The notes under the pieces: generated by a model
What the model saw: the letters and a program-made list of their open reading frames with translations, nothing else
Database searches by the model: none
Told to the model about the DNA's origin: nothing
Shown: positions 7,433-19,219 of the stretch, one piece after another
How the letters are laid out: each line of letters opens with the position of its first letter
Position numbering within the stretch: position 1 is the stretch's first letter
Made by a program: the position numbers and the translations under genes
IMG/VR virus record: IMGVR_UViG_3300044972_000326
Location: 1-22,610 of that record
Length of the DNA stretch: 22,610 bases
Source of the DNA: a virus
Strand: one strand, 5' to 3'

Positions 7433-8073
7433 TATACTTCTTCCAAGGTTACTGACACATTCCAGTAGTCAAACTTGTTTCCTCGTTTTTCAACAGAGTA
7501 AGAAAAGTCGCTAATAAACATTTCAATTAGTTGGTTATATTGCTGGAGATGGTTATAAGGGTCTGGAGTTCCTTTAAATATACCCTTTCTATCGTAGGCA
7601 AGAAATACCCAAAAAGATCCCTTGTGTGCGTCATACCATTCAAGCATGTCAGCACCACCTGCTCCACCATCTGTTGTATATGACTTGTTTGGAGACAAAC
7701 CAGTTACCGTATTAAATGTTGGAACATCATCATGAGACCTAGATGGAATTAGTGTCCAACTGGTACTTAGAGTAAGTTTGTCAGCAATATGATATGATCT
7801 CATTCGACCATTAATCATTCTTTCACGCTTTTCAATTCTTTCATTTTTAAACTGTAGGGTCTGTCTATTATCATCAGTAATTAATAAGAACTGGTCTACT
7901 AGTGATGGATCGTCAACTCCTTCTGGATCTGCCCCGACCTCATAGCCATTAGGGACATAGAGTCCATTTTGTAGGGTGCCAGTGTTTTCTGACCAAAGCA
8001 TACCGCTTGGTCTTCTATACTTTTTACGACCCAGCATATAGGTGACTCTTGGGTCTATTACTTCATCAGCCAT
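7432..8073 (-). CDS. Distal tail (Dit-like) minor tail protein
   Basis: This 213-residue protein lies directly downstream of the tape measure, the canonical position for the distal tail protein that joins the tail tube to the hub. Visible features are an N-terminal basic stretch (YMLGRKKYRRPSG), a central SYHIADKLTLSTSWTLIPSR strand pair, LEWYDAHKGSFWVFLAYD, and the terminal FSYSVEKRGNKFDYWNVSVTLEEV-type strands. The last stretch is a common ending for this protein in actinophages. A ribosome binding site (AGAGGAG) precedes the ATG. The start overlaps the end of the tape measure by 8 bases, and the stop overlaps the hub gene as TAATG. The Dit assignment rests on position and this C-terminal pattern, not on a full domain match. 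Confidence 0.73.
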   Translation of the reverse strand: MADEVIDPRVTYMLGRKKYRRPSGMLWSENTGTLQNGLYVPNGYEVGADPEGVDDPSLVDQFLLITDDNRQTLQFKNERIEKRERMINGRMRSYHIADKLTLSTSWTLIPSRSHDDVPTFNTVTGLSPNKSYTTDGGAGGADMLEWYDAHKGSFWVFLAYDRKGIFKGTPDPYNHLQQYNQLIEMFISDFSYSVEKRGNKFDYWNVSVTLEEV

Positions 8074-11000
8074 TTAGTGACACTCCTCTAACTCTTCTTC
8101 CCTCAACGTTTTTAATTGTTGACATAACTGCCTGTGCAATCTCGTTAGGGTTTGCATCAGTTCTAGCATTTACTGTTAATGCATATGTATTATTATACAC
8201 TGCTCCACCTGCTGATTGCCCATTATTTAATGACTTCATTGTATTTATACCGTGAGTGTCTACGGCATACTTGCTCATTACGAATTCTCCAGGAGTGAGC
8301 ATTGCAGGAACAGTATCGGTTCCTATTGAAAATCCTGAAGCAGAATACCTTTTCGGAACTAATCCTCCAGATGATAGAGCAACCAGTGCGTCTGGTGTTC
8401 CACGCATCTGATTTACGGCATTTGCATAATCAATAATCTGTGATCCATTTGCTGTTCCGTCGCTTACTGCTTCAAATACGCTATCAAAATATTCTGAGTT
8501 AGCAGAAGCAAGGTCTGAAAACTCTAAGATATCTTCGTCAGTGTAGGATCCGCCACTTTGTATTTTTTCTAGTCTTACTTCTGACTCTGCCTCTTCTCCC
8601 TTTTTGATTACTGAATTTTTTGCATCGATAACAGAAATTGGTGTTGAGTTATATTTTGCTAACTTATCAAGAATAGATTGCCATTTTTTATCAATTTTAT
8701 CTGTTGATGCAAGCAATGCTCCAAGTTGACCATCAAATTCTTTTCCTGCAAGTGTGTTGGCCTCGATTTTGGCCTTGACAGCATCCCACTCTAATTGAGT
8801 CTTACCCAAAACTTCTATTCCCTTGACATACTTATCTATCTGTGCTTGTATTAATTCATTAGCAAATGTAATATCTGCAATTTGATCTTCTAGTGGCTGA
8901 AGTTGCTCTATTTGTTTCTTAAGAATATCATCTTGTTTCTTTTGAATATCAGCAAGTTTCTTTTCACGAGCCTCTTCTAAGTTATAAATATCATCTTGCT
9001 TTTTCCTAATACTTTCAAGAATTGCAATTCGTGCTGGATCGTTTTCCATCTGGTAAAGTTTTTGAGAATTTTCAAATTGCTTCTCATCAATTTCTTTTTG
9101 GGTTAGACCAGTTTCTTTTCCACGAAGATTCTTAATCTCGTTTTCTCTAGACTGCTGCAGAGCGTCTGCTGTTGCTGTGCCAAACTTTTGTGCTGATTGT
9201 GCACGGGCCTCTTGTGCTGCTCTTGCTGCTGCTGCTATGTCTCCGCTAGTTAAAGCACCTGCAATATCAAGTTGGCTTTTTTGCTGATTTGTAATTTCTT
9301 CATTTACTTGTGCAACCTTTTCAAGAGCCTCTGCCTGCTTGTCATATTCTTCATTAATTTTCTCTGCCTGATTAGCCATGAGTGCGGAGTCATTTGACAT
9401 CTTAGCATTTTGTTTGTTGATTTCTTCCATGGCACGATCACCAAAGATTGGGTTCATCTCTAGTTCTCTTTCAGCATCAGAAATTTCTTCTTGAAGTGCC
9501 TCTATAGGTCTTGTGTAATTCTTCTCAATCTCTTGTTCTATGTCCCTAATCTCACGATTAAGTAATTCGATTTCTCTTCTAATTGGCTTGGCTGCTAACT
9601 CTAGGTTTGCCAACTGATCTTCGTTGGCCTGCAATGTAGCAACCATGCTAGTTGTTCTTGGATCTGCACCTGTTCTTAGCATCTGTTCTTGAACAGAGAA
9701 CATCTCATCTACAAGATCCATGCCAGGCTGGGCAGACTCAGAGTACTTTCCAGAGTTATAATTTACTTGTATATCAATCATCTTTCTAGCCTCAATAGAG
9801 TTTAGGTAGTCTGCTATTTCTTTAGAGTCAACCTTTCCATCTTTGAGGTCTTCAATTAAACTCTTTGCAAGTGCTGGATCATTTAATACTTCTTGCATTT
9901 GATCTGCAGAGAAGCCTGCCATCTTCATTGCTGTTCCAAGTTTTGGCATTTGCTCAAGAAGTTTAAATTCCTCATTAGCCTGAATCATTTTTTGGCTAAG
10001 AGCAAATCTTTCTGTTTCGTCGGTAGCCTTTTTAAGATCTGCAATGTACTGTTTTCTTTCTTTGCTTCCCTTTTTACCAAGAGCACCTGCTGCGATTGCT
10101 GCTGCTGTAGCAGCATCTTGAACATGTTCTAGGGCCTCTGTTGCAGTTGCTCCTTCTGAAACTAATATCTTAAATGCTTTTTCTTGGTTAGCAACTTGCT
10201 CCACTGCTTCTCTATTAACAACGTTGGCTTCTCCAACTATAGCCTCGTTGTATGTCTTCATCATCTTTTTACCAGTGTCGGTAAGGCCCTTAATATTTGA
10301 CTTTGTTTTTGGCTTACCCTTTTCAAACTCAAAGATAGCCTTCTTGCCTTTTAGGTTTGCAAGTTTCTTGAAGTCTTCAGAAGACATACCAGCAATCATA
10401 TCTCTAAATTCTTTTGGAACCTTCATGCCAATCATTCTCTGCTGCAAACCGTCAAACACCTTGAATGCACTATTCATGTCTTTCTTTATTTTTGGATTAC
10501 TAAATGCAGCAAGCATAGACTCCAGTGGCTTTGTTGCATCAAATGCTCCGTCACGAACATTCTTAATTCTCATTGCAAGTGAGTCAAGGAAGTCAAGAGG
10601 ATCTGATCCTTTACCGTCACCAGTTGTTTTAGGAACGTCTGCTCCAAGAGAAGTAACTCCTCCTGTTCCTGTCATTTCAACCTTTTCAACTGCAAACTCG
10701 GCATCTGAAAGTTTTGCTAACGCTTTAACATTTTTTTCTAGAATCGCTGTGTAGGCATCTGTTCCAATTGCAATATTGTTTAGATATGCTTCATTCATGG
10801 CCTGCTGTTGTGCAAGGTACTGGATATCTGCCTCACGTGTTTTATCATTTACAGTAGCCTCATACATCATTTGTGCTGAAAGTTTTTGTAGATATTCTGT
10901 CTGTTGCTCAAGACTTCCATCTTTAAACTGCTTCATTCTTTCTTCGTTACCCTCTAAGGCATCTGTTGCTGCCTTCATGTTAGCAGAGACGTCAGCAGTA

Positions 11001-14000
11001 GCATCTACAGTTTTCCCGTCGTCTCCTACTAAAGAATCTTTACCAGCCTTCTTAGCAGCGTCTTTCATTTTTTCAAGATCTTCTTGCTCTTTTTTAATCT
11101 TTTCAATTCCTTCAAGACCAATAGTTTTAACTAGAACCTCAAAATCAATTGTGTTTCCATCCATGGCTTGCATGCTCTTAATTGTTTCCATTATAGAGTC
11201 AAACTCTGCTGGATCCTTCTTTTTCATAATCATTTCAGTAATGATTGATGTTGCTTGTTTTCTTCCTCCCGCACTAAATCCTGCAAACATTCCAAACAAT
11301 TCTTTTGTCTTTGCAGCACCCTTTGTTTTAATACCAGCGTTTAACAAGAAGTCCATTTCATTTAACTTGCCACTGAAAAGGTCCATATAACTCGTTGCTT
11401 CTCCTGGGCTTAAGACCTTGCTTCCAACAAGCATTTCCATTTTTGCCTGGAATCTTTGTGCTCCTTGCTGACCTTCAAGACCAGTCTTTACGTACTGTCC
11501 TGTTTTAGAATTATACTTACCCATAGTGGTGTCATCTACAAGGGACTCAGTTTTGTTTAAGAATTTCTTAGAAGCCTCTTCTTGATCTGTTCCCTTGTAT
11601 GTTGATTCAACCTGTGCTCTAGAAGCATCAAAGAATGCATCTTCACGCATAGCCTGCTTACCCCATACAGATCCACTATATACCTTATCAAAACTTATTT
11701 GATTTTTATTTATTTGTGCAGTAATGTTATCATTCATGAACTGCGAATCTTTTAGATTCTGAGCATTAAGATCAGAAATTTGTTTTTCAATATCCAACTT
11801 CTTTTGTGCATTTGTTGTTGCTGCTAACTCTGCTTCAAGTTTTTTCTTTTGAGTCTGATATTCTACCTCAACCTGATCAGCCATCATTGTTGCTAGTTCT
11901 AGATTGTTCATGTTTAATGCTGCTAGGGCTGCAACTTCTTTTCTTGAACTTTCTCCAAAGCCTGATTTTGATGCAATTTCATTTTCAAGGTTGCTAGTTC
12001 TTTGACCTGCTTTTGCCATGATACCGATTCTGGTCTTCATTGGATCCTTCTTTAGATCCTCACCATCTGGACCAATCAATGAATTCATTTGGCCAATGAC
12101 CTGCATTTCTATTTTTGAATCACCAAGTTCTATGGCCATGGCTGCTGCAATACTGTTTGCTGCATCACTGTCTAGAACTCCATCTGCAACACCTGTTGCA
12201 AGTTTTAATGCTAGATCTGATACAGCCTTATCCTTACCAAACTCTTTAGTATTTTTTTGGAACAGATCTTTTTCTTTTTTACCAGGATCTGATCCTAAGA
12301 ATTGCTTTCCAAAGATATCATCTATCTTTATCGCTTCATCATACTTACCATACTGGCTTTCTTGTCTGCGCTTATCCATGATTTCAGATGCGCCAACCTT
12401 GCCAGTTACTTCACCTATTGACTTTAATCCACTTCTTGTTGCTGATAGGTCTTTTGCAAACTGTGCTGCCTTACCAGCCATAGCATTAAGATGTTTGTTG
12501 AATAGGTATGCTCCTGCTGCCACTGCTGCTAGTGCTACTACGATACCCTGCGGTCCTGTGAGACCTGCAATCATTGGAGCAAACTGTGCAACTGTTGCTG
12601 CTCCACCAAGTGCTGCTGTAACTTGTGGTGGGGCTCCTGCCATACCAGCAACCATTGCTGCTGTACCAAGGCCACCTGAAATCTTACCAGAAGCCCTGCC
12701 AACCTTTTCTCTACGCATGCCACGCTTCTTTTCTTTAACTTGCTTTTCTGAAAGAGTTGTTGGTTGCTTCTTTCCGTCTGCATCAAGTTCTGGATCAAAA
12801 ATTATTTGACCATTCTTATCTCTCGTATATGTAGATGCTTCTTCATAAGCCTCAACTGATCCCATTCTGTCTTTGCCTAATTCTTCATTCCCTGACTGAC
12901 TTCCTGGTGGAACAATTCCATTTTCTGCTGCCATGGCTGCTGCTTCTTTAGCATTGTACTCCTTGAGTCTTGCCAACTGCTCTCTTTTTTCTGCTTCTAT
13001 ATCATCGTTTACGACTGCAATGTTTGCAGAAGATGTTGCAAGATCTTGCTGTGCAATTCCTGTTTGATCTATTGCTGGAAGCATTTCTCCAAGGTTGTTG
13101 TTTGCTGCTGCTGTTAACTGGCTAGTTGTTATTAGGTTATCTGCATTTGTTGTTTGAGCATTTACAGCATCACCAGTTGCAGTTGCAAGTTCATCTGTTT
13201 GGTCTGCAACTAGTAGGGTTGATCCTGCTGTGTCATCTGTTCCCTCGACAATTCGCTTTAAGCCATCGCCTTGTTCTTGTGTTCCATTAGAAATAATTTC
13301 GTTTGATGCTTCAGTCCCGTTTTCTAACTGAGTTGCCTGCATATCTGCTTCTGCTGCTTTTATTCTTGCTTCTGCTGCTTTGATTTCTGCTTCATCTGCC
13401 AGTTTCTTAAGGTCTCTAGCATTCTCAGCAGTGTGCATATTCTTGCCACCTTCACGGGCTGCAACTTCTTCCCACTTTGCTGCTTCAGTTCTAACTTTTG
13501 CTGCTGCTGCTTCTGCTTCAGATGCCTCTTTGTCTAACCTGTCGGCTTCTTGACGGGCTTGACCAATGTTAATTGTGTTGCCCTTAATCTTAACTCGTGA
13601 ACGACTTTCGTCTTTGATTTGCTGAACAACCTGTGCTTGCGCTGTTGCTGCCTGCTCTGTGGTTGCTTCTAATTTCGCTGCTGCTGGGCTAGTTTTTGAA
13701 GCAGTTAGAAGTGATGCCTGAGATGTTACTGGTGTTGATGAAACTGAGTCTACTGTTCCTGTAGCACCACGCTTTCTTCTTTGTCTATCTAAAGACTTAA
13801 GAACTTGTCTTTCATCACGCATCTCTGGTGTATCAATATCATCATAGAAGGCTTTGTTTCCAAGATCCATCTTGTCTGTTTTTGCTTGTGTTTCTGCTGC
13901 TGATGGAAGTGCTGCATCAGTGAGTTGTGAAGACTTTGTTTTTACCCCAGGAGTTCCTTCTTCTAATCCTTGTGCAAGTCCATCTGCAATATCTTTTCCA

Positions 14001-17000
14001 AGACGCTTAGTTCGTCTTGATGGTGATGCTGTCTCTGCTTTCTTTTCTGCAGCAGTAAGGTCTGCGTCTACATCTTCAGCAACTGTGATTGAATCAAGTC
14101 TTGCTTTCTTTTCGGCTTCTGATAGTGGGACAAAACCATCACCACCGTCTTCATTAAACTTTCCTTTTCTTTTTTCAACCTTTGCCATTCCAGAAGCAAT
14201 ACGCTCTTCTTTAGGTCTTTGGTCTGCAATATCTGTTTTAGGATATTTTGCTCTTCCTTCGGCATCAAAAATTGTTGCTGTTGCTGCTCTTTTAAATCCA
14301 GGGGTTGCAACAGTTCCTTTATTGCCTTTCTTTCCTGTTGTTTCTTTAGCCATAAACTGTGTGTCATCCAGCATTGATTGAAGGACTCCTGCTTGGATCT
14401 GAAGTTCTTCTTCGTTTAATGCTCCGTTAACAAGAATTTTTTCTTTTATAGAATTAATTTGTTCTGTTGTTGCTGCTTTTTTTGCTTCAAGTTCATCTAA
14501 TTTTTTAAAATAAAGATCTCTTGCTGCATTTGCTTTTTCTGTGCCGTCTTCATTTTGCTTAGGTGCAAGCATTTCAGATAGTTCATTTTCTGAGTGGGTT
14601 GAGACATCCCATAAGTCGGGGTCCCATCCTTCAGAAACTGATTTTGCCGTTGCACCAGGAGAAGCAATATGACCTCTGTCTAACTGAACATTTCCCTTCT
14701 TGCCCTTTGATGCATCTGCATCTGGCCTTTGAAGTGGTTTCATTCCAGGTATTTGATCTACTCTGTCTCCAGACTCATTGGCAATTTTCTGCATTCTTTC
14801 ATACTCAGCACCTCGACCTGCTGCGTACATGTCATCTCTTACACTGCTACCGCCACCCTCAGATTCTCCTTGAGAGTGACCTGCAATTTTTTGCTTACCT
14901 GTAAATCCTGCTTTGTCATTGATTTGATTAGATGATAGAGTAATACCGCTCATCTCTTCTGTTACAATTCTTAACTCTGCAAGGAAAGTTTCAAGTTTTA
15001 CCTTTCCTTCTTTTGCTAATCTTGCAAAAACTTCTTGAAGAACGTCTGCTCCATTTTCAACACCCATGGATCCATCTTGCATTGCTTTTACAAGGTTTGT
15101 TACTGCTGTAACATTCTTTTCTGATTCTGGCTTTATTGCTAAACGAAGTTGTTGTCCACCAACATCAAACCCAACTCCCCTAGATGATTGTCCTGTGGTC
15201 TGTCTCTTACCAGTTCCATTGTTGTACTTCATTACGGATCCGTTTTGAAGTGCTGCAACTAATTCTGGATTTTCTTTTGCAGTCTGCTTTGTAAGAACAA
15301 CTTCTCCAGGAGTCAGTAACGCTGGGACTGTATCTTTATTGCCTGTACCTGGAACAACTCCACCTGTTGCAAACTTTTTGGGAGGTAGCCCTGCTACGGC
15401 TCCTGCAGGTCCTGGGACGGTATTAAACAGACCTGGTGATGATTGGGCAAGGGCTCTTGCTTGGCTGGCTGCATTTCCATATGCTAAGGCTAATGCATCG
15501 ACTGCACCTTTTTCAACATTGAATGTAGATAGAAGTTGCTGATGAGATGTGTGAAGAGCATTTGTTTCTGCAAGCAACTCAGTCTGCTGATTAGTTAAAT
15601 AATCAAACCCTCCACCAAGGACATTGTTTTGTCCGTTAAGTTTAGCAATTCCACCACGAAGCATTGCGAAGAACTTAATTACGTTTGCAATACCGTTAAC
15701 AAGAACACCAAATGTCATAAGTGCAACTGGGGCAATTGCTCCAAGTACACCTATCATAATTGTTATGACCTTCTTAGTTCCATCACTAAGACCATTAAAC
15801 TTTGCCAATATCTTTCCAACAAATTCAACTATTGGGGTTACTGCTTGTAAGAATGCTTTACCTACTGGCACTAACTCATTCTTTAAATTTTCCATGGCCT
15901 TTTTAAATTTAGCCCCTGTTGAATCTTCAACTCTCTTTAATTCTCGCTCAGATAAAATTGCCAACTCTTCAACCGATGCTCCAGCAAGGTCAAGTGCTCT
16001 AGATGCTTGAGTTCCATCTTTTGCAACGTTTTGAAACATTGTTGACATACGAGCAAACTGGAACTTACCAAACAGTTGTTCAATTGCTCTTGCACGGTTA
16101 AGTGGATCTAGTGTGTCTAATGCTCTAGCAAGTCCTACTACCGTGCCCTTTAGGTTTCCAGCATTGTTATCTACAATTCCCTTGATGTTAATTCCAAGTC
16201 CTGCAAGGAACTCACTAGTCTTTTTTGCTGGATTAATCATGGAAGCAAGACCAGACTTAAGTGCGTTAGCACCTTCTGATGCGTTGATTCCACCTTCCTT
16301 CATTGCAGTCATAAAGAATGCTAAATCTTCAACGTCACCACCAAGTTGCTTTACAACTGGTCCAGCCTTTGGAATTGCAATCGTTAAGTCTTCGATAGAA
16401 AGAACAGTTTGGTTTTCTACTGCGTTAAGGAAGTTAATCTTTCCAGCAAGTTCTTCTGAAGAAACACCAAAAGCGTTTTGTAAAGAAATGGTGGTCTCAA
16501 GTGCTTGCTGCTGTTCTACTTGGCCAAGTACGGAAAGTCGTGTTGCTTGAACTACTTGCGCTTCTAAAGCATCACCTTGCATACCCATCGCTGCAGCAGT
16601 TGCTGCCATTTCCATTGTGTCCTTTACGGCAATACCGTATTTCGTAAACTCTTTACCTAGTCTTTGGATATTGGCAACTGCTTTATTTGTTGCATCTCCA
16701 GAGGTTGTTATGTCTCCATAAACTCTTGTAAACTTAAGGACTGCCTCTTCCATTTCCATGAATGTTTTTGCTGCTGCAGAGCCAAGGATGGAAAGAGGAA
16801 TTGTCAAACCAACCATCAACTGACGGCCTGCCCACTGAGTGTTCTTACCAAAGTTTAGGAGGTTTGTTGATCCTTGCTTTAATAACTGATTCAAGAACTG
16901 TTGGCGTTGTGCAGCCATCTGAACTCTTGTTGCATAGTCAGCATACTTACCATTGGCCATTTGTAGGTGCTTTGGAACTACCTGCAAAACCTTGACAAGG

Positions 17001-17422
17001 TCACCATTGGCATTACCCAATTGGATGTACTGGGACTGAAGAAGTTTTACTCTATCTTTACGAGCACGGTTAATAATCTCACGCTCTTGTGCAAACATTC
17101 CTTTAAAGGTTTTTGTGTTTGCCGTCGCTGCTGCTGCTGTATATCTAAAGTACTCTCGCATAGAGAGTTGGTTCTTTTCAAGAGCCCTAGTAAAAGATCC
17201 TGTACTTGTTGCTATCTCTTTTTGACTTGCAACAAATTTTCCAGTCGCATTGATTGCTTGGATTAGTTGAGAATTAAGGCCCTTCTGGGCATTCATTGCT
17301 GCAACATTACCCTGAGTTAGGGATTGGTTAAATGTGCTTAATCCAGCCTGTAATTTACGAAGAGATGCGAGGGCTGCTCTGGTATCAAAATTAATACCAA
17401 TATTTGAGTTTACATCAGCCAC
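8066..17422 (-). CDS. Tail tape measure protein, unusually long
   Basis: At 3118 residues this is far longer than the usual tape measure. The N-terminal part (about 190-600) is the conserved region: GRQLMVGLTIPLSILGSAAA, MEMEEAVLKFTRVYGD, AAAMGMQGDALEAQVVQATR, and a hydrophobic segment at about 548-580. A GG-VPG...DTVPALLTPGE motif lies at 680-709 and recurs in variant form at 3013-3052. An SPSRRTKRLGKDIADGLAQGL motif at 1130-1157 is another tape-measure hallmark. A second hydrophobic region spans about 1577-1645. Long coiled-coil stretches lie near 1290-1370 and 2590-2900. The start is GTG, because an in-frame stop lies immediately upstream and AGAGGGTG is well placed. It sets tail length and is chaperoned by the two upstream gene products. 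No lysozyme or peptidase motif was seen. Confidence 0.95.
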   Translation of the reverse strand: MADVNSNIGINFDTRAALASLRKLQAGLSTFNQSLTQGNVAAMNAQKGLNSQLIQAINATGKFVASQKEIATSTGSFTRALEKNQLSMREYFRYTAAAATANTKTFKGMFAQEREIINRARKDRVKLLQSQYIQLGNANGDLVKVLQVVPKHLQMANGKYADYATRVQMAAQRQQFLNQLLKQGSTNLLNFGKNTQWAGRQLMVGLTIPLSILGSAAAKTFMEMEEAVLKFTRVYGDITTSGDATNKAVANIQRLGKEFTKYGIAVKDTMEMAATAAAMGMQGDALEAQVVQATRLSVLGQVEQQQALETTISLQNAFGVSSEELAGKINFLNAVENQTVLSIEDLTIAIPKAGPVVKQLGGDVEDLAFFMTAMKEGGINASEGANALKSGLASMINPAKKTSEFLAGLGINIKGIVDNNAGNLKGTVVGLARALDTLDPLNRARAIEQLFGKFQFARMSTMFQNVAKDGTQASRALDLAGASVEELAILSERELKRVEDSTGAKFKKAMENLKNELVPVGKAFLQAVTPIVEFVGKILAKFNGLSDGTKKVITIMIGVLGAIAPVALMTFGVLVNGIANVIKFFAMLRGGIAKLNGQNNVLGGGFDYLTNQQTELLAETNALHTSHQQLLSTFNVEKGAVDALALAYGNAASQARALAQSSPGLFNTVPGPAGAVAGLPPKKFATGGVVPGTGNKDTVPALLTPGEVVLTKQTAKENPELVAALQNGSVMKYNNGTGKRQTTGQSSRGVGFDVGGQQLRLAIKPESEKNVTAVTNLVKAMQDGSMGVENGADVLQEVFARLAKEGKVKLETFLAELRIVTEEMSGITLSSNQINDKAGFTGKQKIAGHSQGESEGGGSSVRDDMYAAGRGAEYERMQKIANESGDRVDQIPGMKPLQRPDADASKGKKGNVQLDRGHIASPGATAKSVSEGWDPDLWDVSTHSENELSEMLAPKQNEDGTEKANAARDLYFKKLDELEAKKAATTEQINSIKEKILVNGALNEEELQIQAGVLQSMLDDTQFMAKETTGKKGNKGTVATPGFKRAATATIFDAEGRAKYPKTDIADQRPKEERIASGMAKVEKRKGKFNEDGGDGFVPLSEAEKKARLDSITVAEDVDADLTAAEKKAETASPSRRTKRLGKDIADGLAQGLEEGTPGVKTKSSQLTDAALPSAAETQAKTDKMDLGNKAFYDDIDTPEMRDERQVLKSLDRQRRKRGATGTVDSVSSTPVTSQASLLTASKTSPAAAKLEATTEQAATAQAQVVQQIKDESRSRVKIKGNTINIGQARQEADRLDKEASEAEAAAAKVRTEAAKWEEVAAREGGKNMHTAENARDLKKLADEAEIKAAEARIKAAEADMQATQLENGTEASNEIISNGTQEQGDGLKRIVEGTDDTAGSTLLVADQTDELATATGDAVNAQTTNADNLITTSQLTAAANNNLGEMLPAIDQTGIAQQDLATSSANIAVVNDDIEAEKREQLARLKEYNAKEAAAMAAENGIVPPGSQSGNEELGKDRMGSVEAYEEASTYTRDKNGQIIFDPELDADGKKQPTTLSEKQVKEKKRGMRREKVGRASGKISGGLGTAAMVAGMAGAPPQVTAALGGAATVAQFAPMIAGLTGPQGIVVALAAVAAGAYLFNKHLNAMAGKAAQFAKDLSATRSGLKSIGEVTGKVGASEIMDKRRQESQYGKYDEAIKIDDIFGKQFLGSDPGKKEKDLFQKNTKEFGKDKAVSDLALKLATGVADGVLDSDAANSIAAAMAIELGDSKIEMQVIGQMNSLIGPDGEDLKKDPMKTRIGIMAKAGQRTSNLENEIASKSGFGESSRKEVAALAALNMNNLELATMMADQVEVEYQTQKKKLEAELAATTNAQKKLDIEKQISDLNAQNLKDSQFMNDNITAQINKNQISFDKVYSGSVWGKQAMREDAFFDASRAQVESTYKGTDQEEASKKFLNKTESLVDDTTMGKYNSKTGQYVKTGLEGQQGAQRFQAKMEMLVGSKVLSPGEATSYMDLFSGKLNEMDFLLNAGIKTKGAAKTKELFGMFAGFSAGGRKQATSIITEMIMKKKDPAEFDSIMETIKSMQAMDGNTIDFEVLVKTIGLEGIEKIKKEQEDLEKMKDAAKKAGKDSLVGDDGKTVDATADVSANMKAATDALEGNEERMKQFKDGSLEQQTEYLQKLSAQMMYEATVNDKTREADIQYLAQQQAMNEAYLNNIAIGTDAYTAILEKNVKALAKLSDAEFAVEKVEMTGTGGVTSLGADVPKTTGDGKGSDPLDFLDSLAMRIKNVRDGAFDATKPLESMLAAFSNPKIKKDMNSAFKVFDGLQQRMIGMKVPKEFRDMIAGMSSEDFKKLANLKGKKAIFEFEKGKPKTKSNIKGLTDTGKKMMKTYNEAIVGEANVVNREAVEQVANQEKAFKILVSEGATATEALEHVQDAATAAAIAAGALGKKGSKERKQYIADLKKATDETERFALSQKMIQANEEFKLLEQMPKLGTAMKMAGFSADQMQEVLNDPALAKSLIEDLKDGKVDSKEIADYLNSIEARKMIDIQVNYNSGKYSESAQPGMDLVDEMFSVQEQMLRTGADPRTTSMVATLQANEDQLANLELAAKPIRREIELLNREIRDIEQEIEKNYTRPIEALQEEISDAERELEMNPIFGDRAMEEINKQNAKMSNDSALMANQAEKINEEYDKQAEALEKVAQVNEEITNQQKSQLDIAGALTSGDIAAAARAAQEARAQSAQKFGTATADALQQSRENEIKNLRGKETGLTQKEIDEKQFENSQKLYQMENDPARIAILESIRKKQDDIYNLEEAREKKLADIQKKQDDILKKQIEQLQPLEDQIADITFANELIQAQIDKYVKGIEVLGKTQLEWDAVKAKIEANTLAGKEFDGQLGALLASTDKIDKKWQSILDKLAKYNSTPISVIDAKNSVIKKGEEAESEVRLEKIQSGGSYTDEDILEFSDLASANSEYFDSVFEAVSDGTANGSQIIDYANAVNQMRGTPDALVALSSGGLVPKRYSASGFSIGTDTVPAMLTPGEFVMSKYAVDTHGINTMKSLNNGQSAGGAVYNNTYALTVNARTDANPNEIAQAVMSTIKNVEGRRVRGVSLNG

Positions 17423-17440: not shown

Positions 17441-17764
17441 TTATTTGATTGAGTTTAGAAGACCAGTTGCATCTGCCAGTTTCATACCTGACGCTGCATC
17501 AATAATCTTATAGACTGTAGGAAGATCTAGATTTTCCTCAATCGCCTCTCTGTTGTCTGCTACTAGTGGCAGATATTGCTTAAATGCAATCTGCACACAG
17601 TCTAGCAAAACATTCATTGACTTTTCGTTATCTTCTGCCACTTCCTGCAACTCATTAAACTTTTGCATAAATGGCTTTAGAAGTGAGATCTTTAGTGGTC
17701 TTACTTCAAACTTTGTTCCATCGATAAGATATAGTTCTTCTTTGTCTTCAACTTTTGTAGACAT
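17441..17764 (-). CDS. Tail assembly chaperone-like protein, short paralogue
   Basis: This 107-residue acidic protein lies between the longer chaperone-like gene and the tape measure, the position of the tail assembly chaperone in siphoviruses. Its whole length aligns with the N-terminal domain of the upstream gene (17819-18499). Shared anchors are PLKI near residue 23, DC..IA.KQY.P near 55-66, and NLDLPTVYKIIDAASGMK near 79-96. I estimate 35-40 per cent identity by eye over about 95 residues. Its own extended -10 element lies at 17790-17798, and a strong AAGGAGG site precedes the ATG, suggesting high expression. No slippery heptamer is visible near its end, and no extension into another frame is possible before the tape measure starts. 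By analogy with lambda it would correspond to gpG. Confidence 0.75.
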   Translation of the reverse strand: MSTKVEDKEELYLIDGTKFEVRPLKISLLKPFMQKFNELQEVAEDNEKSMNVLLDCVQIAFKQYLPLVADNREAIEENLDLPTVYKIIDAASGMKLADATGLLNSIK

Positions 17765-17789
17765 CTGTCCTCCTTATAAGGTTTAGTCA

Positions 17790-17798
17790 ATTATACCA
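17790..17798 (-). promoter_or_regulatory. Extended -10 promoter of the short chaperone gene
   Basis: The minus strand reads TGGTATAAT. A start about 7 bases downstream (near 17783) would leave a leader of about 19 bases carrying AAGGAGG. There is no recognisable -35 box. The element sits in the 54-base gap between the two chaperone genes, so the short protein could be made independently of the long one. Confidence 0.55.
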
Positions 17799-17818
17799 TA
17801 GTGCAGGCTTATTTTTGG

Positions 17819-18499
17819 CTATTCGTAAACCTCGTAAGAGAGTCCATTTCCTATTCCAAAACCAGCCCTTTGTGCATTCTTGCCCTGTAAAGCCATAATA
17901 TCGCTTCCATCTGTTGCCTTGCCCTTACTAAATACCCTGGCTTTCATGTCTTCCCATTCATTTCCTTTTCCTGATTTCTTGTCTAAATCAATACCCTTCA
18001 TTGCAGCAAAAAACTTTTTATCGTTATATTCTAGTTCTCTTTTTATTTCAAGCGTTGCAGTTAACTCTGGCATAGATAAAGACTGCTCTAGTTCCTCATA
18101 GTCTTTCCATATTCCAAGAACAAAGACTTCTGACTCTAGTTTTGCCAAGTCTAAGGTTTCCCATGATGATCCGCTTTCTACGGCTTGAGATTTTACTGGC
18201 TCTTCTGATTTTGAATTAATCTTAATACCTGCTGCAATATCCAGAACCTCATAAATTGTAGGAAGGTCTAGGTTATCCTCAAGATCTTCTACTGTCTTTA
18301 TGTGTGGAGCATATTGCTTCATTGCAATTAGTGCACAGTCAACTAAAATAGTTATTGATTCGCCATCCGTTTTTGCTTCTTTAATTGGTTCAAAGGTTTC
18401 TAAAAAATCTCTAAGATATTTTATCTTAAGAGGCCCAGCAGAAATCTCTGTCCTATCTACAAAATAGAACTTTCGTTTTTGATATATGCTTGTTGCCAT
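17819..18499 (-). CDS. Tail assembly chaperone-like protein, long paralogue with C-terminal extension
   Basis: This 226-residue protein has two parts. Residues 1-95 are homologous to the complete short chaperone (see 17441-17764). After a Ser/Glu/Lys/Pro-rich linker (about 97-115), a second domain contains VLGIWKDYEELEQSLSMPEL, then KKFFAAMKGIDLD, and ends NAQRAGFGIGNGLSYE. The DYEELE..LS..EL segment is typical of the second chaperone domain in actinophages, which is lambda T-like and probably contacts the tape measure or tube. I chose the ATG at 18499-18497 because an upstream in-frame ATG at 18529 lies inside the terminator hairpin. No Shine-Dalgarno sequence precedes the chosen start. Instead an extended -10 element lies 6 bases upstream, so the transcript is predicted to be leaderless. 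Confidence 0.74.
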   Translation of the reverse strand: MATSIYQKRKFYFVDRTEISAGPLKIKYLRDFLETFEPIKEAKTDGESITILVDCALIAMKQYAPHIKTVEDLEDNLDLPTIYEVLDIAAGIKINSKSEEPVKSQAVESGSSWETLDLAKLESEVFVLGIWKDYEELEQSLSMPELTATLEIKRELEYNDKKFFAAMKGIDLDKKSGKGNEWEDMKARVFSKGKATDGSDIMALQGKNAQRAGFGIGNGLSYEVYE

Positions 18500-18505
18500 T
18501 ATACA

Positions 18506-18514
18506 AGTATACCA
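18506..18514 (-). promoter_or_regulatory. Extended -10 promoter, predicted leaderless, abutting a terminator
   Basis: The minus strand reads TGGTATACT, followed by 6 bases (TGTATA) and the ATG of the long chaperone gene. The TGG overlaps the end of the terminator's T-rich tract, so any -35 region would fall inside the hairpin. No ribosome binding site lies between this element and the ATG. Confidence 0.5.
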
Positions 18515-18546
18515 AACAGAAAGGCCCAACCCCGAAGGATTGAGCC
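18512..18546 (-). terminator. Intrinsic terminator after the major tail tube gene
   Basis: On the minus strand a 10-base-pair stem (GGCTCAATCC pairing with GGGTTGGGCC, with two G-T wobbles) closes a TTCG tetraloop at 18533-18536. The T-rich run TTTCTGTTT follows at once. It begins about 20 bases after the tail tube stop codon. Stem quality, UUCG loop and T-run together make this the clearest terminator in the window. Confidence 0.88.
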
Positions 18547-18565
18547 TCTCATGTATTAAGTTGTA

Positions 18566-19219
18566 TTATGCGAGTGAACGATCTACGATCTTACCGTATG
18601 ATGCGTCATCGTTTGGAAGAAGACGGAATGATACTTCAAACATTGAAGCCTCATCACGCTTTGCTGATACTGTTACGCTCTCGATTGAGAGTGCACGGTA
18701 TGCAACATAGATTCTTTCCTTTGGATCTGCTGCAGAACCAGAACCTGGTCCTACTGCTACTAGACCACGCTCTAGTGGAACGTCGCCAATATCTCCTGCT
18801 GACATGTTCATTGTCTGAAGACCTAGGGCCTCTGCAGATAGATCGTCTTCATCTGCTGCAATTGCTACTAGAAGGTTTTCTAGTGTTGCCTCTGCGAAAG
18901 ATGTATTTAGGTTAACTGTCATACCTTGCTTGAATAAACGAGCAACGTCGAGAAGTTGATCTACCGCTACTTCACCAAAATCTGGTTCGAACGCTAGTTC
19001 TAGACCATTTGATGTGTAACCGATATTTGTGTATGCATTGTCTGCTGACAATGTTGTCTTGTATGATGTTGCTGATGCTGTTAACGGTGGAAGATCTGTT
19101 GCTGCTTGAGCATCGGTAATCTTTCCGTCCTCATCTAGTCCGATTGGACCTGCATCATGCGTAAATAGTGCTGCTGCACCCACGATGATGTTACTACTTG
19201 AACCACGGCTGTATGCCAT
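18566..19219 (-). CDS. Major tail tube protein
   Basis: This 217-residue protein starts MAYSRGSSSNIIVGAAALFT. It sits between the tail-terminator gene and the chaperone genes, which is the usual place of the tube subunit. The body is beta-rich, with YTNIGYTSNGLELAFEPDFG, LLDVARLFKQGMTVNLNTSF and a C-terminal SIESVTVSAKRDEASMFEVS strand pair. The GLELAFEPDFGEV segment is typical of actinophage tube proteins. I chose the ATG at 19219 because AGAGGTGAG lies 4 bases upstream; a longer frame begins at 19264 but has no ribosome binding site. An extended -10-like element lies about 50 bases upstream and a strong terminator follows, so this abundant protein may be made from its own short transcript. 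Codon choice looks biased, as expected for high expression. Confidence 0.87.
   Translation of the reverse strand: MAYSRGSSSNIIVGAAALFTHDAGPIGLDEDGKITDAQAATDLPPLTASATSYKTTLSADNAYTNIGYTSNGLELAFEPDFGEVAVDQLLDVARLFKQGMTVNLNTSFAEATLENLLVAIAADEDDLSAEALGLQTMNMSAGDIGDVPLERGLVAVGPGSGSAADPKERIYVAYRALSIESVTVSAKRDEASMFEVSFRLLPNDDASYGKIVDRSLA

Follow-up and report, generated by a model that had tools for sequence, protein, structure and literature searches.

Most long-tailed phages produce a short and a long tail assembly chaperone from one gene, on which some ribosomes slip frame. Few recoding events in phages are as conserved as this G/G-T frameshift, which may be retained for ratio control, for co-translational coupling or as a frozen accident. 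The window (the whole stretch of 22,610 nucleotides that was analysed, from virus record IMGVR_UViG_3300044972_000326, a freshwater phage) carries a long and a short gene, which very probably encode the GT and G tail assembly chaperones as two paralogous genes, without a frameshift.

According to ORF calls on this 22.6-kb virus contig, the order of transcription on the minus strand is major tail protein, long chaperone, short chaperone and tape measure; the order given in the initial annotation, extended then short, was correct, and the tape measure gene comes next. The major tail protein gene (18566..19219, minus strand, ATG at 19219; 217 aa, phrog_2175, E=1e-30) sits where the major tail protein is annotated in Streptomyces phages. 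The gap between it and the long gene contains an intrinsic terminator hairpin (18519..18550, minus strand) with a 14-pair stem and a U-rich tail. The long, GT-like gene (17819..18499, minus strand) encodes 226 aa in one reading frame, comprising an N domain (residues 1-99), a linker and a T domain (residues about 109-226), and the short, G-like gene (17441..17764, minus strand) encodes 107 aa consisting of the N domain only. The tape measure gene (8066..17422, minus strand) lies 18 nt past the short gene, with no promoter of its own seen. Its product is very large (3118 aa; 1,677 to 3,948 aa in relatives), which implies a very long tail.

The N-terminal domain of the long protein had been described as homologous to the whole short protein, and alignment bears this out for nearly its whole length (residues 1-94, 41% identity on 96 columns, E=2e-25); profile-profile alignment of the two N domains gave E=3.4e-38. 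Both proteins match phrog_10504 (7e-20 and 1e-19), and residues 130-194 of the long protein match a separate family, phrog_10474 (1e-16). The extra C-terminal domain, also noted initially, aligns with the T domain of the GT chaperones annotated in Streptomyces phages. Searches with tblastn matched phage records of Streptomyces (127) and Rhodococcus (3), 130 in all (E down to 1e-32 against annotated tail assembly chaperones); most of the matches listed fell in two pieces, on features annotated as tail assembly chaperone or as hypothetical protein. For the AlphaFold model of the short protein (pLDDT 75), the best viral match was a tail assembly chaperone (BFVD, TM 0.74, E 3.4e-6), and in a fold search of the PDB the HK97 tail assembly chaperone 2ob9 was ranked first with a non-significant E of 1.3. 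Structure prediction of both N domains gave the same fold elements in each; the fold search with the long model (pLDDT 69) returned no match, and Pfam, NCBIfam and PDB sequence searches assigned the chaperones to no clear family. The two genes thus have the features of this protein family, namely a location between major tail protein and tape measure, a short and a C-terminally extended form with a shared N domain, and a sequence and fold relationship to annotated chaperones. On these grounds the long protein is assigned a putative GT role and the short one a putative G role.

The initial annotation had seen no slippery heptamer in either gene. This stands for the short gene, which has none; the long gene contains one in-phase TTTTTTA, at gene nt 93-99 (codons 31-33), within the N domain and distant from the domain junction. 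It is conceivable in principle that recoding persists, with an extra product made from one gene through a non-canonical slip, and this in-phase heptamer could be taken as a sign of it, as could the presence of some in-phase heptamer near the junction in 16/99 two-gene representatives. The TTTTTTA is however kept by only 18/110 close relatives, the long gene has fewer in-phase heptamers (1) than its codon shuffles (2.0), and the junction heptamers are scattered and mostly A runs. A GGGAAAC at nt 338 of the long gene is in the wrong phase, its -1 and +1 frames are filled with stops, and no synonymous constraint was detected at the N-T junction, where variation is near the normal level of the gene (53 unique close relatives). 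A hidden frameshift in the long or the short gene was rejected on heptamer phase, conservation and synonymous variation, and persistent recoding is considered very improbable. The lambda type is defined by a shifted T domain with a slippery heptamer ending G; here T is in frame and no in-phase heptamer is conserved.

To survey relatives, IMG/VR was scanned five times and the GTDB genomes once, with open frames classified by HMM. The two-gene form (N and T joined in a single frame, followed by a further N gene, always in this order) was found at 322 loci (226 distinct core sequences) and the single-N form with T in the -1 frame at 80 loci (63 distinct core sequences), these counts including some repeats of the same contig. 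The remaining 12 classified loci held a partial set, nearly all as a result of contig-end cuts or an unrecognised diverged N. T was in frame at all 322 two-gene loci and in the -1 frame at 80/80 single-gene loci, which supports the duplication reading of the initial annotation, and no mixed locus (second N with a shifted T) occurred among loci holding the whole region. When copies of N were counted in 30 long records, exactly one was found in 12/12 of the frameshift type and exactly two in 18/18 of the two-gene type (records of up to 118 kb). A second G gene elsewhere in frameshift-type phages was accordingly rejected (0/12 records, the longest of 102 kb and some being fragments).

The single-gene relatives are Stanwilliamsviridae of Streptomyces, the Rhodococcus phage Francesca and freshwater contigs. 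Circinus, Faust, Coruscant and Yaboi all have the major tail protein gene first, then G, then T in the other frame, and last the tape measure gene; the joined product is annotated in Yaboi and Francesca. These phages share with the window the N and T domains, which are homologous, and their placement after the major tail protein gene and before the tape measure gene; they differ in that a single gene is present, T is in the -1 frame, the start is SD-led (Shine-Dalgarno) and there is no second N. An in-phase X XXY YYZ heptamer lies in the overlap of 36/44 frameshift representatives (GGGAAAC 13, CCCAAAT 11, CCCAAAC 11 and GGGAAAA 1; one locus carries a second, overlapping heptamer). In the CCCAAAC and GGGAAAC clades, synonymous variation is zero at the slip codons and also across much of the overlap. 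The Boydwoodruffvirinae (Coruscant, Yaboi, StarPlatinum) are without a canonical slippery heptamer though T is in the -1 frame; at the CCCAAAT site of their relatives they have a conserved GAC CCG GAA (L005:2780-2845, L006:2780-2863), whose CCCGGAA is possibly a non-standard slip site.

The two genes of the window differ in their start signals. The claim that each has its own promoter element was strongly upheld across relatives (99 representatives; 323 loci). Upstream of the long gene, the terminator (fold of -27.6 kcal/mol, z -6.6 in the window) has a counterpart at this position, with z < -2, in 97/97 testable two-gene representatives, and is followed in the window by an extended -10 element, TGG TATACT (18506..18514, minus strand), ending 6 nt before the ATG. 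A -10-like hexamer 3-13 nt before the long start is present in 96% of the 99 representatives vs 9% in shuffles, mostly ending 6 to 9 nt from the start codon and mostly reading TATACT, TAGAAT or TAAAAT (TATAAT in 15/99). No Shine-Dalgarno precedes the long start, GGAGG being found at 0/323 loci. Leaderless genes, which are common in Actinobacteria, are marked by a -10 box about 10 bp ahead of the start codon (PMC3160421), and the long transcript is predicted to be leaderless, starting at the A of the ATG.

The short gene of the window is preceded by an extended -10 with the consensus hexamer, TGG TATAAT (17790..17798, minus strand), and by a Shine-Dalgarno, AGGAGG (17769..17774, minus strand). 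The TATAAT, about 26 nt before the short start, is kept at 322/323 two-gene loci, and anti-SD pairing reaches -5 kcal/mol or better in 98% of the 99 representatives (median -10.7 kcal/mol). The single frameshift genes resemble the short gene, with a -10 about 25 nt upstream and a Shine-Dalgarno. In the two-gene form the tape measure gene follows about 20 nt after the short gene, with no promoter seen between them. Elsewhere in the window, the minus-strand gene starting at 885 (885-915) has TGGTATAAT 6 nt before its ATG and no Shine-Dalgarno; since this is the same type of start, predicted leaderless starts are used at other places in this phage.

Since the start signals of the long and the short gene differ, it is probably at the initiation of transcription and of translation that the G:GT ratio is set; the signals are observed, and their strengths and the resulting protein ratio are deduced from them. 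In the proposed scheme, the ancestor would have resembled the close relatives of today, having only one G gene, equipped with a -1 slip site, and a T domain out of frame with it. A single duplication would have let one copy become an in-frame N-T fusion without slip site and the other an N-only gene adjoining the tape measure gene. GT would then be translated from a leaderless transcript whose promoter, mostly non-consensus, follows the tail-protein terminator, and G from a transcript shared with the tape measure, with a consensus extended -10 promoter, a leader and a strong Shine-Dalgarno. The excess of G over GT would be set by the strength of promoter and translation initiation. Two points weigh against this scheme: in Actinobacteria, leaderless genes can reach good expression, and readthrough from upstream could also supply mRNA of the long gene. 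That the lineage left the frameshift through one duplication and rebuilt the ratio from two initiation modes, a leaderless start for rare GT and an SD-led start for abundant G, is favoured here by a small margin over its being otherwise.

Trees of the N domain placed all long N domains in one clade (99/89, 100% of bootstraps) and all short ones in another (95/72, 94% of bootstraps). Sisterhood of the two groups was neither rejected nor shown (AU p=0.485), so that the frameshift freshwater clades may be younger than the duplication. In the T-domain tree, a single origin of the two-gene form was not rejected (p-AU 0.296); the best tree requires three changes and has L185 and L184 misplaced. These trees are compatible with one old duplication, and since the two-gene group is surrounded by frameshift types, frameshifting was likely the ancestral state. 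L184 (3615-4366) is of the frameshift type, with GGGAAAC and a 25-nt overlap, and its T domain falls on a long branch within the two-gene clade. This may mean that the locus went back from two genes to frameshifting, or that its placement is an artefact of the tree. The identity of long and short N domains is the same within a genome (38.5%) as between genomes (39.0%), which indicates no homogenisation, and gene conversion holding the two alike was rejected on these values.

The second N gene might instead have come from recombination rather than tandem duplication, if a frameshifted locus was fused in frame and later gained the G gene of a related phage downstream, the incoming gene sitting behind the promoter of the tape measure. 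This would account for the short N being nearer to the freshwater frameshift N (mean identity 58%) than the long N is (42%), for the grouping of the short genes with freshwater frameshift genes in a quick tree, and for the TATAAT-type promoter found between GT and tape measure in 10/10 of the GGGAAAC-clade representatives listed, which is the place of the short gene promoter in the two-gene form. The same pattern is however expected if the long gene evolved faster after a duplication, the short N being more conserved than the long N in 89% of pairs, and a tree with long and short as sisters was not rejected; recombination is kept as a tentative alternative, on balance unlikely. More doubtful still is that the two proteins are not simply GT and G, the long N being specialised and not mixing with the short one along the tape measure, so that the two would have separate jobs. 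The faster divergence of the long N points this way, as do fixed differences between the N domains, such as KY in the long protein vs SL in the short protein and in frameshift G (PLKIKYLR / PLKISLLR). Against it, the predicted N-domain folds share the same elements, a PLKI/F/C/Q/P/E core is common to both N domains, and conservation is highest in the T domain, which is consistent with a GT role. The duplication with two initiation modes remains the preferred reading.

Lambda produces about 30 gpG per gpGT, the tape measure being bound by G and the tube protein by T (PMC5009743). The window resembles this system in having short and extended forms with a common N domain directly before the tape measure, with roles that are presumed, and differs from it in having two genes, no frameshift and the order extended then short. 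The initial annotation had called duplication in place of recoding unusual, which has to be tempered, since comparable arrangements are reported in T4-like phages and some Microbacterium phages. PMC10885494 (citing Vladimirov, Gautam and Davidson 2022) reports for T4-like phages a separate short gene and a fused long gene without frameshift. By that account these genes correspond to the separate short and in-frame fused long genes of the window and work alike, and the two-gene principle is therefore already known; unlike the window phage, T4-like phages are myophages, and sequence searches gave no clear match to them, 1/46 members hitting PF12322 weakly (E=0.0012). In some Microbacterium cluster EA phages, two tail assembly chaperone ORFs are reported to be separately expressed with no evident frameshift (PMC7302621, PMC11659878), a likeness at the level of description. 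The papers searched contained no report of this lineage or of a leaderless/Shine-Dalgarno split, an absence that is weak evidence. What appears to be new is an actinophage-type lineage with frameshift cousins and this split between start types.

A large phage group without the frameshift thus exists beside close relatives that retain it in an identical gene order. This shows that the recoding is replaceable and suggests that the conserved need is an excess of the short form. It also gives a measurable prediction, in which leaderless vs Shine-Dalgarno starts set the protein ratio; if true, the sister lineages that keep the frameshift offer a natural before-and-after comparison. For annotation, the two tail assembly chaperone genes of two-gene phages are real and should not be joined.

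Tape measures tend to be longer in two-gene records (mostly 2,400-3,950 aa) than in frameshift records (1,980-3,700 aa). Longer tails as the cause of the switch were rejected (Mann-Whitney p=0.07 on phylogenetically dependent data; 3,144-3,701 aa in the nearest frameshift clade). The scan of GTDB host genomes gave a single locus, of the frameshift type (L416); its 110-kb contig was assigned by binning to a MAG labelled uncultured cyanobacterium and is probably a co-binned phage rather than evidence of a host. Isolates exist of phages that infect Ca. Nanopelagicales, which are freshwater actinobacteria (PMC10202952). In two relatives a foreign ORF, assigned by eye, is inserted between the long and the short gene: a SAM methyltransferase-like ORF (L298:3364-4139), and an HNH/endonuclease VII-like ORF which itself has a leaderless-type start (L329:3379-4006). 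In both, the two chaperone genes and the promoter of the short gene are undamaged.
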